Assembly (NCBI GenBank): GCA_947624965.1
Contig: CANQMN010000004.1
Location: 1-64,000, forward strand
DNA: 64,000 bases
Reading direction: 5' to 3'
Origin: an uncultured Clostridia bacterium
GTDB taxonomy: Bacteria > Bacillota > Clostridia > Christensenellales > Borkfalkiaceae
Part shown: positions 4,477 to 27,222 of the stretch, piece after piece
How the letters are laid out: every line of letters begins with the position of its first letter
Numbering within the stretch: the stretch's first letter is position 1
Notes under the pieces: generated by a model
The model's input: only the letters and a program-made list of their open reading frames with translations
The model's database searches: none
What the model was told of the DNA's origin: nothing
Made by a program: the position numbers and the translations under genes

Positions 4477-5546
4477 AAAAAATATCCCCCCGTCAACTGT
4501 TTTTCTTCCTCGCCTGCATCGCGCCCGTGGGGAAGCTCGTGCTCATGCCTTCCCGCCTCGTCGTAGAGGCGAAGAACGATCTGCTCTTCCCCGCGCTCGT
4601 CGGATTCGCCGTGCAGACGGGCGTCGTATTTTGCGTACTGCTCCTCGCCAAGCGCGGCGAGAGCTTTGCGGACATGCTCGCCGCCACATTCGGAAAGATT
4701 GCGGCGAAGGTCCTCCTCTGCGTCTTTGCGGCGTTTCTGCTCTTTGCGGCGTTTCTTCCCCTGCTCGAACAGAAACTGTTCGTGCAGAGCGCGTTCTACG
4801 ATACGCTGCCTTCCGTTGTTACCTTCGCGCCCTTCTTCCTCTTTTCCGCCTATCTGTGCGCCAAGCCGCTCGGCTCTCTCGGACGGATATGGGATATCCT
4901 CGCGCCCGTCTCCATCGTCGGATTCGCGGGCATCATGCTCCTCTCGGTGGGGAGCGCGGACTACGGCGCGCTCCTGCCCGCGGGCGCGGCGGGCGCGGGC
5001 GGATTTTGGCGGGGGCTCGCGGCGGCGGCGAGCTGGTTCTTCGACGGCGCCCTCCTTCTCCCCTTCCTCGGCAAGATCGATTACCGCCGCGGAACGGCGT
5101 GGAAGGGCGCGCTCGCATACGCCGCGGGCGGGGTCGCCGTCCTCTTTTTCCTCGCTACGTTCTACGGCGTATTCGCCGAGATCGCGCTCAACCAGCCCTT
5201 TGCCTTTACCAAGACGTCCAAATATTTCTCCGGCATCACCGTGCTGGGGCGGATCGATTACCTCTTCTCGTATGCGCTCGCGCTCGTGATGGCGTTCTTC
5301 GTCGCCCTTCCCGTGCAGGCGTGCGTGGACTGCGTGAAGCAGGCGTTCGGCGCGCCGAAATATCTGCCCGCCGCCCTCTCCGTCCTCTTGAACCTCGGAC
5401 TGTTCTTTCTCGCGCTCGGGCTGGACTATCGGTTCGTCGAGATCATGCAGGTGTTTGCGCAGACGCTCTTCTGGATCTTCCCCGTTTTCTGCGTCGCCGT
5501 GCCCCTGCTCTGTCTGCTGTTAAGGAGGAGCCATGCGTCTCAATAA
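4473..5546 (+). CDS. gerB: Spore germination permease, GerAB/GerKB family
   Basis: Start ATGA overlaps gerA stop; 'MKKISPRQLFFFLACIAPVGKLVLMPSRL', polytopic. Confidence 0.9.
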   Translation: MKKISPRQLFFFLACIAPVGKLVLMPSRLVVEAKNDLLFPALVGFAVQTGVVFCVLLLAKRGESFADMLAATFGKIAAKVLLCVFAAFLLFAAFLPLLEQKLFVQSAFYDTLPSVVTFAPFFLFSAYLCAKPLGSLGRIWDILAPVSIVGFAGIMLLSVGSADYGALLPAGAAGAGGFWRGLAAAASWFFDGALLLPFLGKIDYRRGTAWKGALAYAAGGVAVLFFLATFYGVFAEIALNQPFAFTKTSKYFSGITVLGRIDYLFSYALALVMAFFVALPVQACVDCVKQAFGAPKYLPAALSVLLNLGLFFLALGLDYRFVEIMQVFAQTLFWIFPVFCVAVPLLCLLLRRSHASQ

Positions 5547-6711
5547 ATTTCTGAAAACGGTGCCGATGAAACTCTATGCCATCCTCGCCGCGATCGTGCT
5601 CCTCGCCTTCTTCTCCAACGATTTCGGGCTCGTGGACATCCAAAAGACGGCGATCATCCTCGCCGTGGGCATCGATAAGACGGAACAGGGGGTCGCGCTC
5701 ACGTCGCAGATCGCCGTGCCGAAGGGGAGCGACCGCACGACGGGCGGGACGTCCAGCGTGGAGATCCGCACGGAGAACGCCACCGTCTCCGACTGCATCT
5801 CCGATCTGCAAGCCCGCACGGGCTGGGTCCCCAAGCTCGTGTTCTGCAACCTCATCCTGCTCGGCGAAGAGGCGGCGCACGAGGACGTGGCGGAATACCT
5901 CAACTACTTTCTCCGCAACGAATATATGTCCGATTCCTGCCTGCTCGCCGTGTGCGAGGGGACGGCGGAGGAGGCGATCTCCTCGCAGAGCGCGCTGGAC
6001 GACGCTTCCTCGCTCGCCATCACCAAGCTGTTCTCCGATTCCTCCGAAAAATCGGGCACGGTGATGAAGAACACGCTCAAAGATTTTTCCATCGGCTATT
6101 ACGGCGTCTCGCAGAGCTCCTATCTCCCCTTTATCCGCACCTATGTGCAGGAGGGCGCACAGGGGGCGCAACAGAGCGGCGGGAGCGGAGGCGGCGGACA
6201 GGGCGAAGAGCAAAAGATATACGGCGCGGAGGAGACGGCGATCTTCTCGGCGGGCAGAATGGTCGCGCTCCTTCCCAAAGAGCAGACGCTCGCGTTCAGC
6301 ATGCTGAAAGGAAACGTCTATGCGGGGACGTTCAACACCGAGGAAAAGGGCGAGATCGTAACGCTCACCGTGCTCAAAGACGAGGGGAACGTCTCCCTCT
6401 CCATGGACGGCGCGCCGCAGGCGAAGCTGTCGCTCGACGTGCAGGTGCGCCTTTGCTGCCGCGGATCCGCCGCGCCCATCGAGGACGTCTCCACCGACCG
6501 CGTGCCCGACGAAGCGCTGAAAAATGCGGAAGAGACGCTCCGCGGTTACGTTGCGGATCTGTTTGAGAATTGCAAAAAAAGCGGGTGCGACCTGTTTGAA
6601 TTCAAGCGGATGCTGTACCGCTCCTCCCTCCGCAAATACGCGGAATGGAAGGATACCCTCCTCGCCTCGCTGACGGCGGCGGTGGAGACGCGCGTGACCT
6701 CGCTCAAATAG
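5533..6711 (+). CDS. gerC: Ger(x)C-family spore germination protein
   Basis: 392 aa; 'GLVDIQKTAIILAVGIDKTEQGVALTSQIAVP...' and third position of a gerABC operon. Confidence 0.88.
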   Translation: MRLNKFLKTVPMKLYAILAAIVLLAFFSNDFGLVDIQKTAIILAVGIDKTEQGVALTSQIAVPKGSDRTTGGTSSVEIRTENATVSDCISDLQARTGWVPKLVFCNLILLGEEAAHEDVAEYLNYFLRNEYMSDSCLLAVCEGTAEEAISSQSALDDASSLAITKLFSDSSEKSGTVMKNTLKDFSIGYYGVSQSSYLPFIRTYVQEGAQGAQQSGGSGGGGQGEEQKIYGAEETAIFSAGRMVALLPKEQTLAFSMLKGNVYAGTFNTEEKGEIVTLTVLKDEGNVSLSMDGAPQAKLSLDVQVRLCCRGSAAPIEDVSTDRVPDEALKNAEETLRGYVADLFENCKKSGCDLFEFKRMLYRSSLRKYAEWKDTLLASLTAAVETRVTSLK

Positions 6712-6749
6712 CCGCAAAAATTTTTTCCGAAAAATTTTTCCGAAAACTA

Positions 6750-6777
6750 TTGACAGACTGATTTTCCATGCTATAAT
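6750..6777 (+). promoter_or_regulatory. Sigma-A promoter TTGACA-N16-TATAAT
   Basis: Consensus hexamers at 6750-6755 and 6772-6777 in a gene-free region. Confidence 0.8.
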
Positions 6778-6968
6778 AAAGGTACAAAAGGAAAATAACT
6801 TACAGAAATTGTTATTTTCAAACAGGACGGAGACTCCGATGCACAGGTAAATTGATCCGGATAACGGGCAACAAAGTGAGAACGCGGACGGGAAAGTTCG
6901 CCATCGCAGGGAGGCAGGCAGAGGAAGAGACGTCTCCGCAAAAAAATCATATCGGGAGGTACGACGGT

Positions 6969-7004
6969 ATGAAAAAAATTCTTCGGGGCAGAAAGATCTC
7001 GTAG
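6969..7004 (+). CDS. Micro-ORF MKKILRGRKIS (possibly the end of a 50-codon TTG-start ORF from 6852)
   Basis: SD GGGAGGT at 6954-6960, 8 nt before ATG. Confidence 0.3.
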   Translation: MKKILRGRKIS

Positions 7005-7019
7005 AAGGAGGACAGTCCA

Positions 7020-7052
7020 ATGTACTATGATATGATAGGGGCGGAAAGATAA
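7020..7052 (+). CDS. Micro-ORF MYYDMIGAER
   Basis: SD AAGGAGG at 7005-7011 directly after the previous stop, 8 nt before ATG. Confidence 0.3.
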   Translation: MYYDMIGAER

Positions 7053-7165
7053 GTCGACCGAAACATCGCGCGGACGCAGGAAGCGCCGCAATGGGAGTAA
7101 CCCGCAAAAGGTCGAGAAGAGCCGAGGAAGGCTCCGCCCGACACAACAGAATAATGAAGATAGAT

Positions 7166-7197
7166 CCCCCGTGCGGTGGCGCGGGGGAGTTATTTTT
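7166..7197 (+). terminator. Intrinsic terminator
   Basis: CCCCCGTGC-ggtg-GCGCGGGGG then agttatttttc; a second CCGCCC/GGGCGG-TTTTTT hairpin follows at ~7200-7229. Confidence 0.8.
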
Positions 7198-7234
7198 CTC
7201 CGCCCTCCCCGCCGGACGGGCGGTTTTTTCGTTC

Positions 7235-27060: not shown

Positions 27061-27222
27061 GTCCCCTCCGCGAGGCGTTCCGCCGTACCGATAATAAAAA
27101 GGCAATTTCTATCTTTCCCCCGATAAAAATTGCCCAGACGAACGGCGAAAAACGCGTCCTGCGGTCTCACGCGGTGCTCCGCTTTGTATCGTCAGATCCC
27201 GCAGGCGTTTCAAGTTGTATCT

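Follow-up and report, generated by a model that had tools for sequence, protein, structure and literature searches.

Does the spacer between the GerC-type gene at 5533-6711, in which Pfam recognises GerAC domains, and spoIIE (~7320 onward; Pfam SpoIIE) hold an RNA gene of its own, and, if it does, what could such an RNA do? The question was raised by a sequence-only reading of the 64,000-nucleotide stretch of DNA analysed here (the window), whose host genus, Candidatus Gallimonas, an uncultured gut bacterium, we take to be placed in Borkfalkiaceae, order Christensenellales. That reading proposed a transcription unit of about 410 nt with its own promoter, two terminator-like hairpins and no ORF of normal size, regarded it as more than the leader of spoIIE, and left open whether any of it is coding.

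The transcription unit and its distribution

The proposed elements of the unit that were checked are all present (Table 1), giving an inferred transcript of 412 nt that out-folds 100/100 shuffles (z = -5.9) and whose counterparts in relatives measure 390-920 nt. The plus strand contains no normal-sized ORF, as had been claimed, and a 207-aa minus-strand ORF overlying the unit has no Pfam match. The promoter, described earlier as near-consensus, agrees with the consensus at every position and carries a TG extended -10, and no other such site occurs in the region. Among 56 distinct homologs the -35 TTGACA and the N16 spacer are identical in all 56, the TG recurs in 55, and the -10 element reads TATAAT in 51 and TATACT in 5. 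Since collection of these homologs demanded TTGAC[ACT]-N16/17-TATA[AC]T, the absence of promoter-less homologs cannot be shown; what is still informative despite this preselection is that the spacer is always N16, that TTGACA always ends in A and that the TG is kept. Similar A/T tracts occupy the same place in the homologs and are also found upstream of the relatives' rRNA promoters. High expression and abundance of the RNA are inferred, no transcript data being available. At the 3' end, the second terminator-like hairpin was not found as a consistent feature among homologs.

Table 1. Positions in the window of the features of the RNA gene, with the basis of each assignment
Feature	Coordinates	Strand	Basis
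A/T tracts 5' of promoter (UP-element-like; function inferred)	6715-6749	+	sequence
Promoter TTGACA-N16-TGNTATAAT with TG extended -10	6750-6777 (-35 TTGACA 6750-6755; -10 TATAAT 6772-6777)	+	12/12 consensus matches
Inferred transcript, ~410 nt	6784-7195	+	promoter and terminator positions; no RNA-seq
5'-terminal hairpin GAAAATAAC/GTTATTTTC	6791-6819 (arms 6791-6799/6811-6819)	+	re-pairing test
Micro-ORF O1, ATGCACAGGTAA (MHR*), 3 codons	6839-6850	+	recognised in 45/56 homologs
Palindrome GAGACGTCTC	6927-6936	+	sequence
Hairpin CATATCG...CGGTATG, O2 Shine-Dalgarno in loop	6948-6971	+	re-pairing and covariation
Micro-ORF O2, MKKILRGRKIS*, 11 codons	6969-7004	+	indels, synonymous bias, O2-O3 fusion
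O3 Shine-Dalgarno AAGGAGGA, beginning directly after O2 stop	7005-7012	+	homolog spacing
Micro-ORF O3, MYYDMIGAER*, 10 codons	7020-7052	+	10-13 codons in 56/56 homologs
Long-range helix, 5' strand GGGCGGA (O3 codons 7-9)	7039-7045	+	pairs with 7133-7139
Internal stem-loop domain closed by TCGACC/GGTCGA	7054-7115 (7054-7059/7110-7115)	+	sequence
AGGAA hairpin	7121-7132	+	sequence
Long-range helix, 3' strand TCCGCCC, just 5' of 3' motif	7133-7139	+	re-pairing tests
3' motif ACAACAGAATA (ACAACAGAAUA; consensus ACAACUGAAUA)	7143-7153	+	near-invariant 5' of terminator in homologs
First terminator hairpin, then GTTATTTTTC	7165-7188	+	sequence; CCCCCGTGCGGTTGCGCGGGGG-type hairpin in most same-genus homologs
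Second terminator-like hairpin with T-run	7209-7223	+	sequence

The unit could not be assigned to a described family. At gathering score Rfam gave no match over the RNA and none in the loci of 16 relatives, and raiA, OLE, ROOL, GOLLD and the other Rfam families all remained below the gathering threshold; a relaxed scan yielded chance-level scores only. One of these, RsmY (17.6 bits against 57), was rejected as an identity together with any role as a CsrA sponge, the score being sub-threshold and CsrA (PF02599) not being found in the genome by a search that was positive in three control genomes. Models of tmRNA and 6S RNA do not match here, and both of these RNAs are encoded on other contigs of the same genome, which rejects them as candidates; the sequence-only reading had recognised no tmRNA, RNase P, SRP or 6S signatures. 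No account of this RNA was found in the literature. The sole riboswitch detected in the window is a ZTP riboswitch (RF01750, 47.4 bits) at 27125-27209 on the minus strand.

A DNA search matched nearly all genomes of the same genus significantly and gave no convincing match outside it. A model, R1, was built of the 125-nt O2-O3 core and was kept sequence-only because RNAalifold gave no consensus pairs for that core. R1 matches 97/103 same-genus genomes (95 with E < 1e-7, counted from the table) and 35/40 genomes of a second genus, g26, with weaker-scoring matches in many genomes of g28, g36 and further genera of the family. Across the order the tally of R1 matches consists mostly of near-chance scores; two loci from other families (G436 and G044, E ~2e-4 and ~3e-4) resemble the unit in layout when inspected. 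When a DNA pattern built on the surroundings of the O3 start was run against 84,980 species, it found 67 loci; slightly fewer than half are this RNA by anatomy, and the others either match by chance or are short ORFs with no clear relation to it. A pattern of the O3-start type matched 17 of 391 Clostridia genomes, three of them of the same genus, against a chance level of 8/391, none in the genus, set by an off-by-one-spacing pattern; outside the genus this is near chance, and the pattern therefore provides no good evidence for the RNA across Clostridia. The distribution is most aptly summarised as that of a family-level gene, with probable outliers elsewhere in the order. The sequence-only reading had named a match to a known RNA family and a lack of conservation in relatives as outcomes that would refute it, and neither was encountered.

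Conservation of the unit does not depend on its neighbours. In Gallimonas gerC mostly lies upstream of the RNA, as it also does among relatives from g26 and g32. Five loci (L036, L037, L042, L052, L059) have the unit in inverted orientation with respect to gerC and/or spoIIE, and two more (L043, L044) with respect to spoIIE, about seven genomes in total, and in g28, f13 and f9 it stands amid unrelated, often convergent genes, whose identities were read from translations and not from domain searches. Because relatives keep the unit and its promoter in these inverted and unrelated contexts, it is not the leader of spoIIE, any cis action on that gene is unlikely, and the proposal that it is a gene in its own right is supported.

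Several further observations concern a second copy and look-alike loci. One genome, G005, has a second, paralogous copy on a separate contig (G005:C36; L065 ~2060-2520), and its peptides (MILQGFIKA*, MYYYMIGAEN*) are of the same type as those of the G009 copy (L050). Loci from Oscillospiraceae (L157, L162, L180) and Lachnospiraceae (L159, L189) show a promoter-like site and a strong Shine-Dalgarno followed by an ORF of 2-3 codons (MY* or MYS*); L159 and L189 also have a second ORF of eight codons (MKLLNIHR*, MKLQIIHL*) before a terminator-like hairpin. The relation of these loci to the RNA is unclear. The sole exact ACAACTGAATA in the genome (L217 position 1501, minus strand; G000:C2:50866-50876) directly follows an HTH regulator gene, and in G010, G031, G033 and G026 the RNA itself directly follows a gene whose end is of a similar HTH type; the L217 match is possibly a remnant of an RNA copy.

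Three micro-ORFs and their coding signatures

The question of coding, left open by the sequence-only reading, can be answered in part: the unit contains three conserved micro-ORFs that had been missed, each preceded by a strong Shine-Dalgarno site, and is at least partly coding. O1 is mostly three codons long (range 2-11), is unrecognised in 11/56 homologs and has no conserved peptide. Alignment gaps in O2 and O3 are mostly multiples of three, and among single-base codon differences the synonymous fraction is 0.43-0.50 for O2 and 0.34 for O3, against 0.18-0.22 expected. For O3 the +1 frame scores nearly as high (0.33), which may reflect the use of these bases in the long-range helix described below. 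The O3 stops TAA, TGA and TAG (36, 14 and 6 of 56 homologs) are swapped at the same place, and its starts are ATG, GTG and ACG in 44, 9 and 3. The ACG starts are confined to three genomes (G001, G027, G035; L055, L057, L063) in which the O2 stop has been lost and O3 has changed its ATG, fusing O2 and O3 in frame; the fused peptide is MTNFIPREARKISDKEDRPTYNFTEGAQS in G001, a 29-residue product, with close variants in the other two. The similarity of these sequences suggests that the three fusions probably represent one event. From the O2 stop to the GGAGG of O3 the distance is 2 nt in 38/56 homologs, from which we infer a layout for re-initiation.

Taken as comparative evidence, these patterns show O2 and O3 to evolve as coding sequence, with a bias that is clear for O2 and weaker for O3. 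We are accordingly confident, in the absence of transcript or ribosome-profiling data, that the locus is an independent conserved RNA gene whose O2 and O3 are translated, as far as alignments alone can establish translation. The locus illustrates that conserved coding units of only 3-13 codons can reside in intergenic DNA that looks devoid of ORFs.

The second codons of O1 and O3 form a separate observation. Codon 2 of O1 is NAC (His, Asp, Asn or Tyr) in 38 of the 45 homologs with O1, and codon 2 of O3 is TAC in 45/45 ten-codon forms. Tyr, His, Asn and Asp are the four queuosine codon boxes, and queuosine sensing was considered; the nearly constant NAC second codons, always C-ending within these boxes, are left as an unexplained observation.

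Conserved helices and the 3' motif

The RNA structure was evaluated by re-pairing tests, in which native pairs of strands compete with strands exchanged among homologs; these tests ignore the shared ancestry of the sequences. The 9-bp hairpin that had been noticed near the 5' end is supported by this comparison, as 0/2000 arm re-pairings match the native pairing (56 homologs, relatedness not removed). A hairpin that places the O2 Shine-Dalgarno in its loop gave the same result (0/2000 as good, relatedness not removed), with 86.6% of cells paired against 82.7% in shuffles and a covariation score that 5/500 shuffles equalled or exceeded. The long-range helix joins the end of O3 to the segment just 5' of the 3' motif. 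Re-pairings as good as the native one numbered 2/2000 in the genus set and 0/5000 over 16 other-genus sequences; the helix has at least 5 bp in 66/72 sequences, through 49 distinct sequence pairs that include GGAGCGT/ACGCTCC, GAGGTC/GACCTC and AGGAACG/CGTTCCT. In the predicted fold of the window's own RNA, 5/7 of its pairs have a pair probability of ~0.99, and the predicted helix disappears when O3 is forced unpaired. A control pairing of the O1 region with the O3 region was negative in the re-pairing test.

The structural elements listed by the sequence-only reading were all present where checked, but not all are conserved, and the supported long-range helix was not among them. The compact hairpin with an AGGAA loop is there as described. 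The palindrome exists in the window but was not seen as such in relatives, and the TCGACC/GGTCGA pairing likewise exists but has weak comparative support (64/2000 re-pairings as good). Weak support (8/2000) was also obtained for a helix between the O1 Shine-Dalgarno region and the segment before O2. A hairpin between O1 and O2 (of GGACGGGAAAGTTC type), conserved by eye, was set aside as unsupported by the re-pairing test.

An 8-bp perfect complement, ATCATATC/GATATGAT at 6946-6953 / 7029-7036, is a potential competitor of the O2 hairpin. Among homologs the native pairing of the broader regions around it beats 2000/2000 re-pairings, and it is possible that this pairing represents an alternative fold. 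Some homologs among L032-L064 have insertions of up to ~500 nt between O3 and the 3' motif, with both ends and the helix kept; in L047 the distance is 574 nt.

The 3' motif resembles rRNA signals. In three relatives (G449, G019, G172) a motif of the 16S-23S spacer matches ACAACUGAAUA at 10/11 bases, a level reached by 5/400, 2/400 and 6/400 shuffles. The relatives' 16S leaders have a weaker form (8-9/11) in a mostly constant place, individually not or barely significant. No 16S gene was found in the window's own assembly, and the rRNA similarity depends on a single 11-base motif. Stretches like the boxA core, such as UGUUCCUUACAACUGAAUA, occur in some genus-g26 RNAs, not throughout, at a position unlike that in rRNA. 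As the 3' motif adjoins the terminator, it may merely assist termination. The NusA ligand of M. tuberculosis is said to resemble this motif. In rRNA, boxA binds NusB-S10 and NusA binds boxC, and in M. tuberculosis rRNA boxA and boxC are reported to be sequestered in stem-loops, with NusA-boxC binding associated with opening (PMC6614801).

A possible mechanism and its relation to known systems

The anatomy of the RNA gene is well supported; its mechanism is inferred. What homolog comparison shows is an independent unit, coding signatures in O2 and O3, and a helix that pairs the end of O3 with the segment just 5' of an rRNA-like motif. The best explanation overall, which in the absence of binding data we rate somewhat below an even chance, is that ribosome loading governs the exposure of an rRNA antitermination-like signal; it is supported by the conserved O3-end helix, the coding signatures, the rRNA-like 3' motif and the sequestered boxA and boxC of M. 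tuberculosis. An abundant RNA would be transcribed from the consensus promoter, ribosomes would load on O1-O3 and run from O2 on to O3, and a ribosome on O3 would open the long-range helix, thereby exposing a boxA/boxC-like segment to which Nus factors, or a different partner in rRNA processing, may bind. If no ribosome initiates on O3, this segment would remain masked. The RNA would in this manner report ribosome activity, acting in trans. Translation-controlled folding as the working principle of the RNA remains a tentative proposal. Nus factors are an improbable partner, with an RNase or mRNA targets as alternatives, and the further step to a hitherto undescribed class of RNA that senses ribosome activity, in which micro-ORF translation unmasks a site titrating Nus or rRNA processing factors, is more speculative still. 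If it were true, rRNA synthesis in this order of gut Clostridia would be tied to free ribosomes through a trans-acting feedback loop.

It is unlikely, though not remote, that the RNA is a polycistronic mRNA for bioactive micropeptides (MxxFxxGLKIS-like O2, MYxxxxGAEK-like O3) whose structure only tunes translation. O2 and O3 are indeed constrained as peptides, and their fusion retains both parts in one product; however, O1 ranges from 2 to 11 codons without a conserved peptide, both the length and most residues of O2 and O3 vary, the bases of O3 are constrained as a helix strand, and the layout 3' of O3, with helix and motif, is itself conserved. We consider it rather unlikely that the unit is a small RNA base-pairing through an unpaired 3' motif, with micro-ORFs serving chiefly to stabilise it: stability alone would not call for conserved signatures of translation or for the pairing of an ORF end, even if a near-invariant motif beside the terminator, a strong promoter and the lack of fixed neighbours are what such an RNA would have. 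A sink, in which the short ORFs tie up 30S subunits or NAC-codon tRNAs and slow translation in certain conditions, would fit the strong Shine-Dalgarno sites, the mostly three-codon O1 and the NAC and TAC second codons, but it is very doubtful, as the long-range helix and the 3' motif are left unexplained and O2 and O3 are rather long for peptidyl-tRNA drop-off of the minigene type. A cis-acting attenuator, in which translation of the micro-ORFs would govern the terminator and through it spoIIE or some other gene downstream, shares its leader ORFs, alternative helices and terminator with ribosome-mediated attenuators but is largely refuted and retains only the slimmest chance, the required fixed same-strand upstream position not being met by a unit that is inverted in relatives and whose downstream genes vary, often convergent, in other genera and families.

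Whatever its mechanism, we have little doubt that the RNA gene is real and conserved, that it has not been described before, and that its coding and structural design is unusual. Found in nearly every genome of the gut genus and in much of the family, and absent from Rfam, it constitutes a new RNA family. The widespread structured RNAs of Bacillota include raiA/ModT, OLE, ROOL and GOLLD, from which the Gallimonas RNA differs in having no Rfam match and in carrying micro-ORFs that appear translated. With CsrA sponges of the RsmY/CsrB type it shares hairpins with GGA in their loops and the weak RsmY score, whereas its genome lacks a detectable CsrA. It is closer to dual-function small RNAs such as VcdRP of Vibrio cholerae, which has one 29-aa ORF (PMC8672173), in that one small transcript is both a structured or regulatory RNA and a messenger for small proteins. 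Two criteria for such RNAs are met: an independent small unit with promoter and terminator, by sequence and comparison (the transcript has not been seen), and a translated small ORF, by the comparative coding signature of O2 and O3 (without ribosome data). On the further criterion of regulation in trans at the RNA level, by base pairing or protein binding, the observations consist only of the conserved structure and motif. Here, in contrast to VcdRP, there are three micro-ORFs of 3, 11 and 10 codons and a helix between an ORF end and the 3' domain, and no sequence relation is known. The likeness to the boxB-boxA-boxC signals of rRNA lies in the spacer match of the 3' motif and in the fact that stem-loops can sequester signals of this kind (PMC6614801); the motif of the RNA, however, is 3'-terminal before a terminator and not ahead of rRNA, and a boxA core is not clearly conserved. 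Ribosome-mediated attenuation leaders and uORFC motifs (PMC8632094) likewise have short translated ORFs able to switch folding near a terminator, whereas the Gallimonas RNA is free-standing, has no fixed downstream gene and is inverted in several relatives. Its layout of three micro-ORFs, with an ORF end paired before an rRNA-like motif, predicts translation-controlled RNA folding outside any leader.
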